Source: a virus. From it: 35,773 bases of DNA. Location: positions 1 through 35,773 of IMG/VR virus record IMGVR_UViG_3300046517_001911. One strand, written 5' to 3'. The translations under genes and the position numbers were made by a program. Positions within the stretch are counted from its first letter, which is position 1. Every line of letters begins with the position of its first letter. The notes beneath the pieces were generated by a model. The model was given only the letters and a program-made list of their open reading frames with translations. It had not been told where the DNA came from and searched no databases. Shown here piece by piece: positions 2,823 to 35,773 of this stretch.

Positions 2823-2976
2823 GTTTTATCCTTTTAGGTTTCTTTATCTTAGCTCCTGACTTTCTAGCTTCCGATAAAGCAGCAGCAATAGCTTGCTTGC
2901 GCTTGTGACCAGAATGAACCATTTCTGATATGTTTTTAGATATAGTTTTTTGGCTTTTACCTTTTTTTAATGGCAT
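2806..2976 (-). CDS. Small basic conserved phage protein (56 aa)
   Basis: It starts [19 protein letters not shown] and continues [15 protein letters not shown], ending in a Lys-rich tail. The pattern KGKS.KTIS.NI.EMV.SGH..KQA.A.AL is a familiar tiny phage/bacterial family of unknown role, found commonly near portal genes. The start overlaps the preceding stop as TAATG. It is strongly basic with no Cys or transmembrane segment; a nucleic-acid-associated or assembly role is possible. Confidence 0.8.
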
Positions 2977-3158
2977 TATGCATCTCTCCGATTACGTGGA
3001 TAAAACTTATCATATGCTTTCTTGATATCTACTTGTCCAGCACCATCCATTACTTTACGTTGAGCCGCTTCAAGCTGCTTGCCATTTAAATTATAAGTCT
3101 TCTGTAACTCTCGCGGAGAAGCTTCCTGGAAATCTCTATACGTTGGAGTGCGTTTCAT
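2976..3158 (-). CDS. Hypothetical protein downstream of portal (60 aa)
   Basis: I choose ATG 3158, preceded by AAGGTG at good spacing; a GTG at 3167 is the alternative. The start lies within the end of the portal gene (23-base overlap). Sequence features: [20 protein letters not shown] and then a helical part ending [14 protein letters not shown]. It looks like a compact helical protein. No family recognised. Coupling with portal suggests a head-assembly or accessory function. Confidence 0.65.
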
Positions 3159-13483: not shown

Positions 13484-13507
13484 AAAATATCCTTATTGTA
13501 ATATATT

Positions 13508-13589
13508 TGGAAAGGGATAGATTCGAACTATCGTGCCTTTTGGGAACAGATTTACAGTCTGCCGGTTTCAGCCACTCACCCACCTTTCC
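13508..13589 (-). tRNA. tRNA-Tyr (anticodon GTA)
   Basis: An 82-base tRNA with long variable arm, as expected for bacterial tRNA-Tyr. Acceptor GGAAAGG/CCTTTCC (13583-13589 and 13509-13515) pairs fully. The anticodon arm is GCAGA-CTGTAAA-TCTGT with GTA, and the T-arm is GATAG-TTCGAAT-CTATC. The discriminator is A and no full CCA is encoded, so the host enzyme must add it. It lies in a leftward transcript that continues into the replication genes. Confidence 0.93.
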
Positions 13590-13597
13590 ATAAACTT

Positions 13598-13653
13598 TGG
13601 GGATTTAGGTGGAATCGAACCACCACAGAGCCTAGATGTCTCCAAGTCATCCC
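13598..13653 (-). tRNA. Truncated tRNA-like unit lacking a D-arm
   Basis: Read leftward it starts GGGAT right after the spacer AGTTTAT and ends ATCCCCA. A perfect T-arm GGTGG-TTCGATT-CCACC (13608-13624) is present. An anticodon-arm-like GATGA-CTTGGAG-ACATC (loop with TGG, a proline-type anticodon) has one mismatch. No D-arm exists, and only five acceptor pairs (GGGAT/ATCCC) form. It is either a decayed tRNA or a deliberate tRNA mimic. Confidence 0.45.
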
Positions 13654-13659
13654 ATAAAC

Positions 13660-13767
13660 TGGCGGAAAATGTAGTTAGACTTCTTCACAGGCTTCTATGC
13701 ACATACACTAAACCGAATTGCCTGCTTTACATCTGATGTGGTATGTGTATCACAATCTACATTTCCC
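13660..13767 (-). ncRNA. Candidate 108-base structured RNA with CCA end and pseudoknot
   Basis: Ends pair over 11 bp: GGGAAATGTAG with CTACATTTTCC, one G-T, followed by GCCA. Inside, CACATAC pairs with GTATGTG (7 bp), and CAGGC, lying between those arms, pairs with GCCTG beyond them (5 bp): an H-type pseudoknot. A small ACAT-CAG-ATGT hairpin sits between. It is flanked by the same AGTTTAT spacer that precedes the other two tRNA-like units. It does not fit canonical tRNA, having no T-loop. Confidence 0.45.
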
Positions 13768-13777
13768 ATAAACTTAA

Positions 13778-13806
13778 TTGATATCATAAACAATAAATGA
13801 TATCAT
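13778..13806 (+). promoter_or_regulatory. Rightward early promoter with tandem operator-like palindromes
   Basis: TTGATA (13778-13783), 17 bases, TATCAT (13801-13806), reading toward the RHH gene at 13851. ATGATATCAT at 13797-13806 is a perfect 10-bp palindrome on the -10 element; TTGATATCAT at 13778-13787 (one mismatch) sits 19 bases away on the -35. Confidence 0.75.
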
Positions 13807-13830
13807 AATACAACAAGTTAATAATATCAA
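13802..13830 (-). promoter_or_regulatory. Leftward promoter for tRNA region and replication genes
   Basis: Read leftward: TTGATA (13830-13825), 17-base spacer, TATGAT (13807-13802). The -10 overlaps that of the rightward promoter and the operator-like palindrome at 13797, so one bound dimer could block both. Expected start near 13795, ahead of the structured RNA at 13767. Confidence 0.72.
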
Positions 13831-13850: not shown

Positions 13851-14009
13851 ATGAAAAATGATAGAAAAGTAAAAACTTTTGTTGTTAGATTTCCTAGAGA
13901 CCTTTGGTTATTTCTAAGAAAACATTCTGTGGACATAGAATGCTCAATGAACAAAATAATACTAGAGTGTATGAATTCTTATAAGGAAAAAAATGAAAAA
14001 AAACTTTAA
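13851..14009 (+). CDS. Arc-like ribbon-helix-helix DNA-binding protein (52 aa)
   Basis: VKTFVVRFPRDLWLFLRKHS is the beta strand and first helix, and MNKIILECMNSYKEK the second helix, the same layout and length as P22 Arc (53 residues, RWPREVLDLVRK...SVNSEIYQRVMESFKK). RHH proteins bind short palindromes as dimers of dimers. Alternating TFVVRF would insert into the major groove. Start follows GGAGAGTAATAA. It stands directly downstream of the double ATGATATCAT-type site, so autoregulation and control of the divergent promoters are likely. Confidence 0.88.
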   Translation: MKNDRKVKTFVVRFPRDLWLFLRKHSVDIECSMNKIILECMNSYKEKNEKKL

Positions 14010-14015
14010 ATATGT

Positions 14016-14043
14016 TTGACATCATTAAATATCATGATATCAT
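14016..14043 (+). promoter_or_regulatory. Rightward promoter with operator-like palindrome
   Basis: Consensus -35 TTGACA (14016-14021), 16-base spacer and TATCAT (14038-14043). ATGATATCAT again lies exactly over the -10 (14034-14043). It follows the RHH gene and would drive the rest of the early operon, so it is likely controlled in step with the promoter at 13778. Confidence 0.72.
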
Positions 14044-14585: not shown

Positions 14586-15335
14586 ATGTTAAGTTTTCAC
14601 GGTAAGCAAGAAATTAAAGATAAGTATTTAGCTAGAGTTATAAAACATAGAGAATTAGATAATATAATTCAAGGGATTGGATGGGAGAATGGCAAAGGAT
14701 GTGCGGTGGGGTGTACTTTAGAAAATTATGATCATTCTAGATATCCAATCGAGCTTGGATTACCCGAGTGGTTAGCAAGATTAGAAGATAGAATATTCGA
14801 AGGATTTCCGAAAGAAAAAGCAATGTTTTGGCCTGAAAGATTTCTAGCATCAATTCCAGTCGGGGTATGCGTTGAAAATGTAAGACATCATTCAAGTATC
14901 AAAAGAATGGAAAGATTACTAGAAATACAAAATAAATTATTAGAAAAACATAATGAACAATATATTTTAGATACTATTAATTCAATAAAATTAGTAATTG
15001 ATTGTCATAGATTAGAGTTAAAAAATGAATATTGTGATTGGGCAAAAGCAGAATCAGCAGCAGGGTCAGCAGCAGAGTTAGCAGCACAGTCAGCAGCAGA
15101 GTCAGCATGGTCAGCAGCATGGACAGCAGAGTCAGCATGGTCAGCAGCACAGTCAGCAGCAGAGTCAGCATGGTCAGCAGCACAGTCAGCAGCAGAGTCA
15201 GCAAGGTCAGCAAGGTCAGCAGAAGACTCATTGGCAGCAGCATGGGCAGCACAGTCAGCAGCAGACTCATCATGGGCAGCAGCATGGGAAGTTGAAGCTA
15301 ATACTTTAATTGAATGTTTGAAAAATTGTGAATAA
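14586..15335 (+). CDS. Imm5-like domain protein with Ala/Ser-rich repeat tail, copy 1
   Basis: A 249-residue protein. Residues 1-145 match a widespread family annotated as putative immunity protein (Imm5-like): LSFHGKQEIKDKYLARVIKH, then GWENGKGCAVGCTLENYDHS, RYPIELGLPEWLARLEDRIF and ERFLASIPVGV. Residues about 152-235 are a low-complexity tail of SAA, SAE, SAW and SAR elements with Ser every 3-4 residues, giving a continuous helix with a small-residue stripe; then WEVEANTLIECLKNCE ends it. Family members in phages often carry such tails; function is unknown. The paralogue lies at 16147-16920 on the other side of the annealing protein gene. Confidence 0.8.
   Translation: MLSFHGKQEIKDKYLARVIKHRELDNIIQGIGWENGKGCAVGCTLENYDHSRYPIELGLPEWLARLEDRIFEGFPKEKAMFWPERFLASIPVGVCVENVRHHSSIKRMERLLEIQNKLLEKHNEQYILDTINSIKLVIDCHRLELKNEYCDWAKAESAAGSAAELAAQSAAESAWSAAWTAESAWSAAQSAAESAWSAAQSAAESARSARSAEDSLAAAWAAQSAADSSWAAAWEVEANTLIECLKNCE
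15047..15293 (+). repeat. In-frame triplet/9-mer repeat tract, copy 1
   Basis: TCAGCAGCA, GAGTCAGCA and TGGTCAGCA elements recur throughout. All units are multiples of three, so slippage changes tail length without breaking the frame. The last part is identical to the tract in the second paralogue. Confidence 0.85.
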
Positions 15336-15349
15336 TTGGAGTGAAAAAT

Positions 15350-16147
15350 ATGGATAAATCTATAGTTAATATTAATAATGATATAAATATAAGTGAAGAG
15401 TTACTTGAAAAAGTTATATTGCAAAATGATTTGGGTGGATTAACACCTTTAGAAAAAGTTCAACATGTTAAAAATGTTTGTTTAAGTTTAGGATTAAATC
15501 CAATAACAAAGCCTATACAGATTCATAAATTTCAAGGTAAAGAAGTTATGTATATGTCTAAAGATGGTGCTGAACAACTTAGGAAAATACATAATGTATC
15601 AATAATTAAATTAGAAACAGATATTTTGCGAAATGATCTTTATGTTGTTAAAGTATATGCTCAACTTACAAATGGAAGACAAGATTGCTCAACAGCAGCA
15701 GTTGGAATATTAGGACTTAAGGGAGACGCAATTGGAAATGCAATGAAGAAATGTGAGACTCAAGCAAAAAGACGAGTAACTCTTTCAATATGCGGTTTAG
15801 GTATGCTTAGTGAAGAAGAATTAGAAAATCTTCCTAAAGACAATGTAATTTTAACAAAACAAATAAAAAAAGAAATAGAAAATAATAAAACAGATGATAA
15901 GATTGATTTTGATATTGATGAAGCACTTATTAATATATCTCAATGTTCATCACAGGATGAATTAAAGAGATTAGTATCATCTTATAGTGTTTTTAAATCA
16001 GGATTAAGCAAGGTTGATATAAATAAGATAGTAGAAGCTAAAAATAAAAAACAAGAAGATTTAAAGCCAAAAGAATTACCAAATGCAGTAAGTGAATTTT
16101 TAAGAGAATATGATTCAGTTGATATAGAAACAGGGGAGATTAAATAA
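15350..16147 (+). CDS. Probable phage single-strand annealing protein (RecT/Red-beta-like superfamily)
   Basis: 265 residues from ATG 15350, with GGAG 8 bases ahead; GTG 15341 is an alternative. Key stretches: GLNPITKPIQIHKFQGKEVM, MSKDGAEQLRKIHNVSI, ALIGNAMKKCET-like (seen as GDAIGNAMKKCETQAKRRVT) and LSICGLGMLSEEE. This pattern of LNP.T.P, K.G...L...H and AKRRVTLSICGLGML is frequent in phage recombination modules and resembles Bet/RecT proteins, which anneal complementary strands. The C-terminal 80 residues are charged and variable. No partner exonuclease adjoins; the VRR-NUC at 10814 is the only nuclease seen besides terminase. It ends in a TAATG overlap with the second Imm5-like gene. Confidence 0.62.
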   Translation: MDKSIVNINNDINISEELLEKVILQNDLGGLTPLEKVQHVKNVCLSLGLNPITKPIQIHKFQGKEVMYMSKDGAEQLRKIHNVSIIKLETDILRNDLYVVKVYAQLTNGRQDCSTAAVGILGLKGDAIGNAMKKCETQAKRRVTLSICGLGMLSEEELENLPKDNVILTKQIKKEIENNKTDDKIDFDIDEALINISQCSSQDELKRLVSSYSVFKSGLSKVDINKIVEAKNKKQEDLKPKELPNAVSEFLREYDSVDIETGEIK

Positions 16148-16920
16148 TGTTAAGTTTTCACGGTAAGCAAGAAATTAAAGATAAATATCTTAATAGAGTT
16201 ATAAAACATAGAGAGCTAGATAATATAATCCAGGGAATAGGATGGGAGAATGGAAAAGGATGTGCTGTTGGGTGTACTTTAGAAAACTATAATCATTCAA
16301 GATACCCAATGGAATTAGGACTTCCGGAATGGTTAGCTAGATTAGAAGATAAAATTTTTGAAGAATTACCTAAAGAAAAAGCAATGTTGTGGCCGGAAAG
16401 ATTTTTAGATGCAATTCCAGTCGGAGTATGTGTAGAAAAAGTTAAACATATAATATCAATTAAAAGAATGGAAAGATTATTAGAAATACAAAATAAATTA
16501 TTAGAAAAACATAATGAACAATATATTGTAGATACTATTAACTCAATAAAATTAGTAATTAATTGTCATAAATTAGAATTAAATGAACAGTATTGTGATT
16601 GGTCCGCATGGGCAGCAGCAGAGTCAGCAGCAGAGTCAGCAAGGTCATTATCATGGTCAGCAAGGTCAGCAAGGTCAGCATGGGCAGCAGCAAGGTCATC
16701 AGCAGAATTAGCAGATTCAGCATGGGCAGCAGCAGAGTCAGCAGAGTCAGCAGCAGACTCATCATGGGCAGCAGCACAGTCATCAGCAAGGTCAGCAAGG
16801 TCAGCAGCAGACTCATTGGCAGCAGCATGGGCAGCACAGTCAGCAGCAGACTCATCATGGGCAGCAGCATGGGAAGTTGAAGCTAATACTTTAATTGAAT
16901 GTTTGAAAAATTGTGAATAA
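16147..16920 (+). CDS. Imm5-like domain protein with Ala/Ser-rich repeat tail, copy 2
   Basis: A 257-residue paralogue of 14586-15335. The domain (residues 1-145) differs mainly by conservative changes and many silent ones; GWENGKGCAVGCTLENYNHS and the ERFLDAIPVGV segment are kept. The tail (about 152-243) is longer and arranged differently (SAWAAAESAAESARSLSWSA and so on). The last 118 bases through the stop and 6 bases beyond are identical to copy 1, as are the first 38 bases, while the middle has diverged. This fits gene conversion at both ends. Coupled by TAATG to the annealing protein. Confidence 0.8.
   Translation: MLSFHGKQEIKDKYLNRVIKHRELDNIIQGIGWENGKGCAVGCTLENYNHSRYPMELGLPEWLARLEDKIFEELPKEKAMLWPERFLDAIPVGVCVEKVKHIISIKRMERLLEIQNKLLEKHNEQYIVDTINSIKLVINCHKLELNEQYCDWSAWAAAESAAESARSLSWSARSARSAWAAARSSAELADSAWAAAESAESAADSSWAAAQSSARSARSAADSLAAAWAAQSAADSSWAAAWEVEANTLIECLKNCE
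16602..16877 (+). repeat. In-frame triplet/9-mer repeat tract, copy 2
   Basis: Same GCAGCA/GTCAGCA elements as at 15047-15293 in another order and with TCATCA variants. Bases 16809-16926 equal 15224-15341 exactly. A likely hot spot for homologous exchange or slippage. Confidence 0.85.
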
Positions 16921-21661: not shown

Positions 21662-24211
21662 TTAAGCTGCTTTTTGAATCCACCAAATAACAGTACCTGT
21701 ATCTGAAACACCTAAACTAGATGTTATTGTAAAAGATATTCCGTTTGAAATTGTATAAGTTAAAATTCCAGGAGTACCACCTAAAGTTGAATGATTCATA
21801 AAGATAAGATCTCCTGTAGATACTGCTGTTGTATTAACAGTAGTAGTAGATCCTGATAATACAACAGAATTAGCACAACCATTAGTTCCTTGCTTAACTT
21901 TTAATGTTTTTCCAAGAGTATTAACAATTAAATTATTATTACTTACAACATCACCACTAGTATTTAATAAAAATCCATTCGTATAACTAATGTTAGATCC
22001 TTGTGCAACACCAGAAGCATAATTAAATTGTAATGCATTAGAAAGATGAACAATTTGAAAATTACTACCAGAATATGAAGAAATATTATTTGATCCGTTC
22101 CAAAATGAATCAAAATTTATTGCTTGATTACCGTGCGCATCATTAAAAATTGATAAACCAGAATAACCATCAGCAGTAGTATAAAATTTCAATGAATTAT
22201 TAGTAGTTCCATCAGTTCCGTATAAATTTAAAACACCAGGAGTTTGAAAAGTTTGAGAAGAACTATTCGCACCAATATACAAATGACCGCCTGTAGCAGA
22301 ATCATAAAATAAATGAGTATTATCTTGAGAAATTACACCACTTGTACCAGAAAATATTACACTACCACTTGTTAATCCTGATAATGTTAATCCAGTAGTC
22401 GTAAGTATATTAGTGCTAGGATTAAAACTTAAACCTGTTCCAAGATTAAATGGTTGATTACTATTAGAAGAAGAAGCAGCAAATAAAGGAAAAAATGAAG
22501 CATTTGTGGAAACAGAAACAGTTGCACCATTATTAGCATTCGTAGCAGTAGTAGCAGTTGTTGATGATGTAGCATTTCCAGATAAACTAGCTGTAATAAT
22601 TCCTGCACTAAAATTACCGCTTCCATCTCTTTGTACTAATGTACTTGCAGTATTAGTAGAACCATAAGGTAAACTAACTAAACGCTTAGAACTATCTGTA
22701 GCTACTATTTGACTTGCTGTTAAAGAACTAAGTGTAATTTGGTTTGTTGAATAACTTATATAAAATGGAACAGTATTATTTGTAAGATTAACAATTGCAT
22801 ATTCATTTCCAGAAGCTGCTTGATATAATCCAGATCCCCAATATGGAGTTGCCGAGAAATTATATAAACTTAATGCACTTTGAGATATATCGCTAATATT
22901 TAAAACAAAACTAGATGATACTCCTAAGCCACTTGATATTGTTGCTGCATTTGCTATTGATAAATCAATATTAGTTCCTGATGGAGTTATATCTAAATCA
23001 CTACTAGTAATATTTAAAATTCCTGTTAATCCATTTAAACTAATAACTCCAGATGAAGCCCCACCAACATCTCCAACTTTTTGAATATCAACTAACATGT
23101 ATCTAACAATATATTCATTATTAGCCGGTGTAAGATCACCGTTATTGTTAATTATTGGATATATTTTATCATTTGGATTTAACATTACAGTGATATTATA
23201 AGGTACTATTACTGCATCTAAGTCATTAGTTCCCTGGGTGACAAAAGGCATTAATGCATTTGAACTATAAATGGGCACAAATCCGGAACCAGAATCTATA
23301 CCGATACTGTAATTATAGCTATTTGGATTAGTGTTACTAACAGTACGAATTCTATTAGTTATTCCAATCCTAAATTCCGCTGCTTCTAATCCTACATATT
23401 GAAAATAAACATAGCTTGAAGAATCAAGAGCACTAACAAAATTAACATTTATAGCAGGTAAATTATTAGATCTTATGCCTTTAAAAGTTCCAGCATCTGT
23501 AAAACTTTCAGAAAAAGTATTATTATGTACCCAAGCACTAGTTAATGCCGTTGAAGCTCCTGATCCTGTTAAAGATATTTCACCATCCGTGATATCTATT
23601 CCTGGGCCTGCCGTAACATCAACAGGAGTAGTTGAACCATTCCATGACTTAACTATGACTGGAATTGTTACAGATCCAGATTTTCCATTTACTAAATATA
23701 CTTTTGTATTAACTAACCAAGATCCAGCAGCAGTAGATGTATCTTCAACTTTAAATAATATGTCATCTAGTCCATTCATAGATATTATTGGAATACCCGT
23801 TGAATCAGCAACGCTAAATGATTGTGTAGAATTAATACTCCTTATTTCTGGACCTAATCCCAAGGAAAAACTTTGACCAGGAACATTAGCAATAGGAAGT
23901 CTTAGTTGATTCCCTGGATTATTAGTAGTAACAATGATAAAAAAAGGACAGGGAATAGGAAGTTGATAAACTCCTCCCATAAAGTCTGAATCTGTTATGA
24001 TTAATTCTGCTCCCGTTCCAGATCCAAGATTAATTAAAGCATCATCAGGATTAGAAACATCAGATAAATTATTAGCTTTTAATAAAAAAGGACCTCCTCC
24101 GCTACTAGGAGAAGTAAATTGAGTATTAATACCAGATCTTAAGCCAACTATTATATCAGTTGATTGTATTTCTCCTCCATTTGAAAATTGACTAAATTTT
24201 ATATCTGCCAT
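21662..24211 (-). CDS. Large tail fibre/receptor-binding protein
   Basis: 849 residues. It begins ADIKFSQFSNGGEIQSTDII followed by VGLRSG and a Gly-rich hinge, a typical virion-attachment start of phage fibres. The rest is Ser/Thr/Asn/Gly-rich beta sequence with Thr/Ala repeats (ATSSTTATTATNANNGATVS) as in trimeric beta-helical fibres, and the end (LGVSDTGTVIWWIQKAA) is aromatic. No endosialidase or lyase signature and no intramolecular chaperone were recognised. It probably determines host range. Confidence 0.8.
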   Translation of the reverse strand: MADIKFSQFSNGGEIQSTDIIVGLRSGINTQFTSPSSGGGPFLLKANNLSDVSNPDDALINLGSGTGAELIITDSDFMGGVYQLPIPCPFFIIVTTNNPGNQLRLPIANVPGQSFSLGLGPEIRSINSTQSFSVADSTGIPIISMNGLDDILFKVEDTSTAAGSWLVNTKVYLVNGKSGSVTIPVIVKSWNGSTTPVDVTAGPGIDITDGEISLTGSGASTALTSAWVHNNTFSESFTDAGTFKGIRSNNLPAINVNFVSALDSSSYVYFQYVGLEAAEFRIGITNRIRTVSNTNPNSYNYSIGIDSGSGFVPIYSSNALMPFVTQGTNDLDAVIVPYNITVMLNPNDKIYPIINNNGDLTPANNEYIVRYMLVDIQKVGDVGGASSGVISLNGLTGILNITSSDLDITPSGTNIDLSIANAATISSGLGVSSSFVLNISDISQSALSLYNFSATPYWGSGLYQAASGNEYAIVNLTNNTVPFYISYSTNQITLSSLTASQIVATDSSKRLVSLPYGSTNTASTLVQRDGSGNFSAGIITASLSGNATSSTTATTATNANNGATVSVSTNASFFPLFAASSSNSNQPFNLGTGLSFNPSTNILTTTGLTLSGLTSGSVIFSGTSGVISQDNTHLFYDSATGGHLYIGANSSSQTFQTPGVLNLYGTDGTTNNSLKFYTTADGYSGLSIFNDAHGNQAINFDSFWNGSNNISSYSGSNFQIVHLSNALQFNYASGVAQGSNISYTNGFLLNTSGDVVSNNNLIVNTLGKTLKVKQGTNGCANSVVLSGSTTTVNTTAVSTGDLIFMNHSTLGGTPGILTYTISNGISFTITSSLGVSDTGTVIWWIQKAA

Positions 24212-35602: not shown

Positions 35603-35773
35603 TTAGACTCTGTATTTTTTCCTGTAGTCTCTGACACTCATAGCACCATTATCGACTCCGGTGTTAGAAGGTCTCAATTGACTAAGTGGTTGATTAGGAA
35701 TTCTCATGCTTTTAGCAGATTCATTTTCAGCTAATGATTTAGCTAATCTTTGAATTTGCTTTATAGCAGCTTG
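35603..35773 (-). CDS. Scaffolding protein, C-terminal part (continues from base 1 of the circle)
   Basis: The frame leaving base 1 continues here and ends at TAA 35603. The last 43 bases' worth of sequence beyond the repeat (35603-35646) supplies the unique end, NGAMSVRDYRKKYRV. The basic tail fits a coat-binding function as in P22 scaffold. Followed 61 bases later by the coat gene's start at 35541. Confidence 0.75.
   Translation of the reverse strand, partial: QAAIKQIQRLAKSLAENESAKSMRIPNQPLSQLRPSNTGVDNGAMSVRDYRKKYRV
35647..35773. repeat. Direct terminal repeat (contig closure overlap), right copy
   Basis: Identical to 1-127; see that entry. Any circular map should drop one copy. Confidence 0.95.

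Follow-up and report, generated by a model that had tools for sequence, protein, structure and literature searches.

A candidate family of pseudoknotted, non-tRNA RNAs represented in the tRNA-Tyr array of an uncultivated phage

What is a 108-base unit that ends like a tRNA, lacks a cloverleaf and stands ahead of tRNA-Tyr in a phage genome? Phage tRNA arrays are usually viewed as supplements to the host tRNA pool and, lately, as a means of resistance to tRNA-cleaving defences. The unit, called unit 1 here, belongs to a virus record 35,773 bases long, the whole of which was analysed and is referred to as the window. The window is probably a complete circular assembly because its ends (1-127 and 35647-35773) form a perfect 127-base terminal overlap. 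Its proteins include a portal, a large terminase, an O-like replication protein and an endolysin, and no near relative at the DNA level was found among isolated phages.

The 35.8-kb window contains the spacer AGTTTATGG at exactly three places, immediately before unit 1, unit 2 and tRNA-Tyr (Table 1), against a chance mean of 0.43 per window and with none of 100 shuffles reaching three. The initial annotation had proposed from a common spacer that the three are members of one array; the layout supports this, since the spacer is found nowhere else in the window, and similar arrays are met again in related phages (see below). The locus reads as a short leftward array with unit 1 first, then unit 2, then tRNA-Tyr. 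Unit 2, the T-arm of which gives a weak 17-nt match to the tmRNA model of Rfam (E 0.28), looks like a degenerate or minimal tRNA-like unit. A nearby transcription start had also been predicted: a consensus match does place one about 28 nt upstream of unit 1, but such promoter-like sites are no commoner in the window than in shuffles. On the other strand, a 52-aa ORF (13851-14009, +) weakly resembles Arc-like repressors (E 0.009); palindromic TGATATCAT sites at 13779-13787, 13797-13806 and 14034-14043 stand beside it, overlap the predicted promoter of the array and are possible operators. At another locus, L022 (minus strand, ~17180-17129), a 52-nt minihelix unit, GCCGATGACA...TGTCATCGGC-GCCA, is preceded by AGTTTAT.

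Table 1. Features of the array locus in the window, in the order of leftward reading
Feature	Positions	Strand	Remark
Sigma-70-like promoter match TTGATA-17-TATGAT	13802..13830	-	Consensus match only; first hexamer at 13830, second ends at 13802
AGTTTAT leader preceding unit 1	13768..13774	-	
Unit 1, 108-nt RNA unit, family named F3 here	13660..13767	-	First base 13767, last base 13660; homologues L199, L008, L220
P1 5' strand GGGAAATGTAG, acceptor-like 11-bp closing stem	13757..13767	-	
S1 5' strand CACATAC, pseudoknot helix	13741..13747	-	Covarying
TGTAAA, immediately 5' of S2	13726..13731	-	Invariant in 4/4 homologues
S2 5' strand GCAGGC, pseudoknot helix	13720..13725	-	Covarying
S1 3' strand GTATGTG, pseudoknot helix	13700..13706	-	Covarying
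S2 3' strand GCCTGT, pseudoknot helix	13687..13692	-	Covarying
GAAGAAG, immediately 3' of S2	13680..13686	-	GAAGAA part invariant
P1 3' strand CTACATTTTCC, acceptor-like closing stem	13664..13674	-	
GCCA, discriminator-like G and encoded CCA	13660..13663	-	NCCA ends also in other array units
AGTTTAT at unit 1/unit 2 junction	13654..13660	-	A shared with CCA
Unit 2, 56 nt, perfect T-arm (GGTGG TTCGATT CCACC), 5-bp acceptor, without D-arm	13598..13653	-	
AGTTTAT preceding tRNA-Tyr	13590..13596	-	
tRNA-Tyr (GTA), CCA not encoded	13507..13590	-	ARAGORN, Rfam

Unit 1 shares with tRNA an acceptor-like closing stem, in which GGGAAATGTAG pairs with CTACATTTTCC over 11 bp including one G-U, and an NCCA 3' end, here GCCA. 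Its interior helices S1 (7 bp) and S2 (6 bp) interleave as an H-type pseudoknot. The initial annotation had described the stem, the GCCA end and interleaved CACATAC/GTATGTG and CAGGC/GCCTG; all were found again, on the minus strand, and the second helix is one pair longer (GCAGGC/GCCTGT). Only 0.02% of shuffles yield a terminal stem of 9 bp or more in the exact register of unit 1, and the closing stem is well beyond chance. The pseudoknot of this single sequence is not significant: of the shuffled interiors, 49% also offer an H-type helix pair of at least 6+5 bp, and with a z-score of about -1 the folding energy is ordinary, so that single-sequence structure did not prove it. The absence of T-loop and cloverleaf, noticed at the outset, stands as well. 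No cloverleaf, T-arm, D-arm or anticodon arm was detected in unit 1, and tRNA-Tyr is all that ARAGORN and Rfam recognise in the window. Rfam 15 holds no family that matches unit 1 and no matching riboswitch, lax thresholds included, and ARAGORN reports no tmRNA in the window. Where the unit had been suggested to mimic a tRNA, the likeness holds for its ends, i.e., acceptor-like stem and NCCA, and fails for the body, which has neither tRNA elbow nor anticodon.

Homologues were collected with a terminase profile, which gave 80 related phage contigs, and further loci were added from their non-coding arrays and from pattern scans built on these, about 290 loci (L numbers) in total. Unit 1 and three units of uncultivated phages, L199, L008 and L220, make up the family F3. 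L199 was found among stem-closed NCCA units; it has AGATGTAAAGC and GTGAAGAAGTCTA in common with unit 1, and the two colinear identical runs, of 11 and 13 bases, were reached in none of 20,000 shuffles. L008 and L220 have only short motifs in common with unit 1, which arise by chance in 0.6% and 0.07% of shuffles, respectively. L220 was detected by motif only. L008, a relative at 64% by terminase, is a weaker witness and not independent evidence of the pseudoknot because its search demanded one.

The position of the pseudoknot relative to the shared motifs UGUAAAG and GAAGAA is the same in all four members: UGUAAA stands directly before S2 and GAAGAA directly after its 3' strand, without exception. 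The bases of S1 differ, CACAUAC/GUAUGUG in the window against CUCAGCG/UGCUGAG, ACUGGCC/GGCCAGU and GUAUGGC/GCCAUAC in the homologues. With helix columns chosen by hand in four sequences, 93.8% of the cells are standard pairs and 11 of 12 pairs have changed on both sides; the covariation score is 1.18, compared with 0.34 when shuffled and at most 0.15 when slid. The probability of both helices by chance ranges from 0.00045 to 0.0076 per sequence. S2 is interrupted by a 3x3 internal loop in L199 and comprises 4 bp adjoining the motif in L220. Compensating changes in homologues were what the initial annotation had asked to be looked for, and they were found; its reading of unit 1 as a new phage small RNA is likewise supported. 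These comparisons support F3 as a putative conserved family of structured RNA, previously undescribed and distinct from tRNA.

Several other searches added no member. BLASTN with unit 1 against phages and plasmids returned nothing usable, an exact 22-mer from the end of unit 1 had no match in viral contigs, and no viral contig was retrieved with the replication protein of the window as bait. Pattern scanning of the whole records of ~100 related phages, and a search of 143 genomes from the order of an uncultured Legionella MAG, gave no additional F3 unit; the window itself holds no second copy. Among nine exact-motif matches to the F3 core, L199 alone stands in array context and the other eight look like chance.

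The surroundings of the F3 core differ from member to member. In the window it is enclosed by the 11-bp stem, and in L199 it lies between GGCC and GGCC-ACCA, with F1-like flanks (see below), inside a multi-unit array. In L008 the core is framed by GGCC...GGCC-GCCA, ends in GGCCGCCA and stands alone between genes, downstream of a VRR-NUC gene. In L220 it is found within an F2 tRNA-like unit. The four loci show one core exchanged among three different outer frames.

Many relatives of the window carry arrays of CCA-ended or tRNA-like non-tRNA RNAs, and in the arrays of NCCA-ended units the junctions read TTTATG. The F1 frame, GGCC-GACGAUAY...GAAAAUA-GGCC, was recognised in 29 distinct units, 16 of which encode NCCA and which are often preceded by a TTTAT junction (L010, L038, L086, L115, L117, L119, L120, L130, L131, L141, L143 and others). 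Resemblance of F1 to a hammerhead was dropped, as its CUGA varies between copies. F2 comprises 52 distinct tRNA-like units of 109-213 nt with an insert that differs between phages (L061, L067, L088, L117, L146, L151, L199-L203, L241, L256, L260, L292-L294 and others). Its 5' part consists of an 8-bp acceptor-like stem, two linker bases and a D-like arm with the loop GACAGUGA; the variable insert is followed by a T-like arm with the loop UGCAAUU, abutting the acceptor, and there is no anticodon arm. The invariance of both loops is partly due to the search pattern, which fixed them. The 8-bp stem lies in exact register in 42 of 77 distinct pattern matches and at any other offset in at most one. 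In 31 of those 42, 98.6% of cells are paired and both sides differ among units at 17 of 18 pairs; since a row had to have 7 or more of its 8 acceptor pairs formed to be kept, the acceptor part of this count is partly by construction, while the D-like and T-like arms played no part in the choice. F2 by itself is strongly supported as a new RNA family. A same-strand F1, F2 or tRNA lies within 300 nt of 22 of the 81 F1 and F2 units. No published description of these families was found in a search whose scope left aside subscription papers and preprints, and 'undescribed' is to be taken as provisional.

When one F2 unit was compared by BLASTN with 50,697 records of isolated phages, nothing convincing was matched, and F2-like matches in Salmonella and Klebsiella jumbo phages were rejected since they lie inside a protein gene. 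An exact F2 probe matched six contigs of a species-genome collection, of which L291-L294 look genuine by inspection. In L293, a contig of a Chloroflexi MAG, the F2 unit lies at ~2900-3070 on the minus strand, and the contig also has tmRNA calls and other structured-looking DNA. Pseudoknots were counted in the interiors of 29 of 52 F2 units where 20 were expected, and the idea of a general excess was dropped because this one is only mild. The F2 inserts of L177, L195 and L213 are alike (AGCTGAGCCTTCTCCCCAGTGGA...GTTCAGCAAAACTGGAG) and could form a further H-type pseudoknot.

Other units of these arrays were observed in passing. An F1 frame in L199 (+, 2379-2515) surrounds a tRNA-like insert for which ARAGORN makes no call; the insert has a 7-bp acceptor, and its T-arm, ATAGG TTCGAAT CCTAT, is perfect. 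At least three more stem-closed NCCA classes occur, each in a pair of phages: L086/L201, L088/L130 and L119/L141. In the first pair, GGGTGAG...CTCATCCC-AGCCA of L086 and GGGGAGAG...CTCTTCCCC-TCCA of L201 have the core CAAAGTAAGCGTACGATGAAAT in common. Normal tRNAs alternate with stem-closed, CCA-ended units without a tRNA model match in L094, a 102-kb contig, and in L091, which has 23 tRNAs. Twelve matches to CCAGTTTATGN and CCAGTTTATG spaced by 55 to 85 bases were obtained, of which L087, L089, L090, L092, L093, L095, L096 and L097 were discarded as protein repeats or non-array DNA.

The nearest known kind is represented by the species 1 and species 2 RNAs of T4 (rnaC, 139 nt, and rnaD, 119 nt), which adjoin tRNA-Arg and are annotated as stable. 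Like unit 1, which has its junctions in common with tRNA-Tyr, they are small non-tRNA RNAs encoded in a phage tRNA cluster; the T4 RNAs were detected experimentally, and unit 1 is a prediction from sequence. Their function is still unknown (PMC9697503). A T-arm-like hairpin is present in rnaC, and the sequence following rnaD reads CACCA. Strings like UGUAAA and GAAGAA occur in rnaC mismatched and in the wrong order, and rnaD has only a GAAGAA-like one; by motif check, neither the F1/F2 loop pair nor the F3 motif pair in order is present in either RNA. The tRNA-like structures of plant RNA viruses also combine a helix-closed CCA end with a pseudoknot. They form the 3' terminus of an RNA genome and unit 1 is an array gene of a DNA phage, with its pseudoknot, unlike theirs, outside the acceptor arm. 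Type III antitoxin RNAs of the ToxI kind, too, are short H-type pseudoknots with an arrayed arrangement in the genome. Their repeats are cut by the toxin and are devoid of acceptor stem and CCA; the window, in contrast, has one F3 copy, and a scan of the proteins that neighbour the array revealed no toxin. GOLLD and ROOL are structured phage and prophage RNAs of unknown function, often near tRNA islands and with pseudoknots, which both form nanocages, GOLLD often exceeding 800 nt (PMC12286853). Unit 1 differs from them in its 108 nt and in having no Rfam match, and at six loci of related arrays Rfam recognised only tRNAs. RNA anti-CRISPRs (Racr) are small phage RNAs that inhibit defence by mimicking CRISPR repeats (PMC10651486).

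We consider it probable that unit 1 is a structured RNA which is released from the array and acts in trans. A long acceptor-like helix followed by NCCA is acceptable to RNase P, and endonucleases cut in AU-rich spacers; because unit 1 offers such a helix and such a spacer, it would most likely be released as a stable RNA of ~108 nt. By analogy, host tRNA-maturation enzymes would excise it from the array transcript, RNase P cutting at G13767, guided by the helix and NCCA, and an endonuclease cutting in the AU-rich GUUUAU spacer, followed by trimming to CCA. The RNase P step is argued by analogy because the closing frame is not conserved between F3 members, and we infer transcription, processing and stability of the RNA. 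Its working part would be the H-type pseudoknot, presenting the invariant UGUAAA and GAAGAA to a partner. As a tentative guess, the partner might be a host RNA-binding or defence protein for which unit 1 is a decoy or inhibitor. Phages use tRNA-Tyr as protection from retron-Eco7 and Septu (PMC11555353, PMC13096335), the Cas12a3 defence cleaves tRNA CCA tails (PMC12851939), and Racr is a precedent for RNA that inhibits a defence (PMC10651486); these precedents and the tRNA-Tyr companion are circumstantial for such a role.

The same unit might instead act in cis, as a leader that is not released and whose pseudoknot regulates the leftward replication operon from its 5'-UTR. Its place would suit this, since the predicted leftward transcript begins with it and the O-like replication gene lies downstream, as would the solitary core of L008 after the VRR-NUC gene and the common occurrence of H-type pseudoknots in riboswitches. 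We regard it as unlikely, for unit 2 and tRNA-Tyr stand between unit 1 and the first gene, which would be cut apart by tRNA maturation; the downstream genes differ between members, the cores of L220 and L199 being inside an F2 unit and a multi-unit array; a closing stem with an NCCA end is unexpected in a leader; and no riboswitch of Rfam matches. Still less credible, and largely refuted by the homologues, is the view of unit 1 as a degenerate or insertion-bearing tRNA, a remnant of a decaying cluster with an accidental pseudoknot. Unit 2 does resemble a tRNA remnant or a minimal tRNA, and the pseudoknot and folding energy of the single sequence are not unusual, but decay would hardly leave a perfect 11-bp closing stem, conserved motifs with compensatory changes in three other phages, and no T-arm, D-arm, anticodon arm or tRNA model match.

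A released RNA could also serve through its tRNA-like end, tying up RNase P, the CCA-adding enzyme or a defence nuclease that cleaves tRNA, with the pseudoknot only stabilising it; a decoy for tRNA enzymes was among the roles suggested in the initial annotation. That many related phages have NCCA-ended units with several unrelated interiors speaks for this, as do the CCA-tail cleavage by Cas12a3 and the protective tRNA-Tyr cited above. It leaves unexplained, however, why UGUAAA, GAAGAA and the pseudoknot geometry persist while frames are swapped, and CCA is not encoded in about half of the F1 and most F2 units; we think it rather improbable. The preferred reading, a released RNA acting in trans through its pseudoknot, places these conserved elements in the working part.

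Conserved non-tRNA units suggest that phage tRNA arrays also carry small structured RNAs, and the T4 species 1 and 2 RNAs could turn out to be one case of a widespread class. The covariation supplies defined structures for testing. It is a real, if speculative, possibility that many uncultivated phages have a modular RNA system in which a few frames suited to maturation (long acceptor stem, GGCC frame F1 and elbow frame F2) hold exchangeable interiors, pseudoknots included, as arrayed anti-host RNA effectors. If true, the engineered tRNA scaffold would have a counterpart in nature.

Two further observations concern the proteins of the window. Those encoded at 14586-15335 and 16147-16920 (+) are nearly identical (MLSFHGKQEIKDKYL...); repeats rich in Ala, Ser and Trp lie close to their C-terminus, and the first of them has no Pfam or PHROG match. 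An 849-aa protein (21662-24211, -) has a K1-lyase as its C-terminal domain and is likely a capsule-degrading tail protein.
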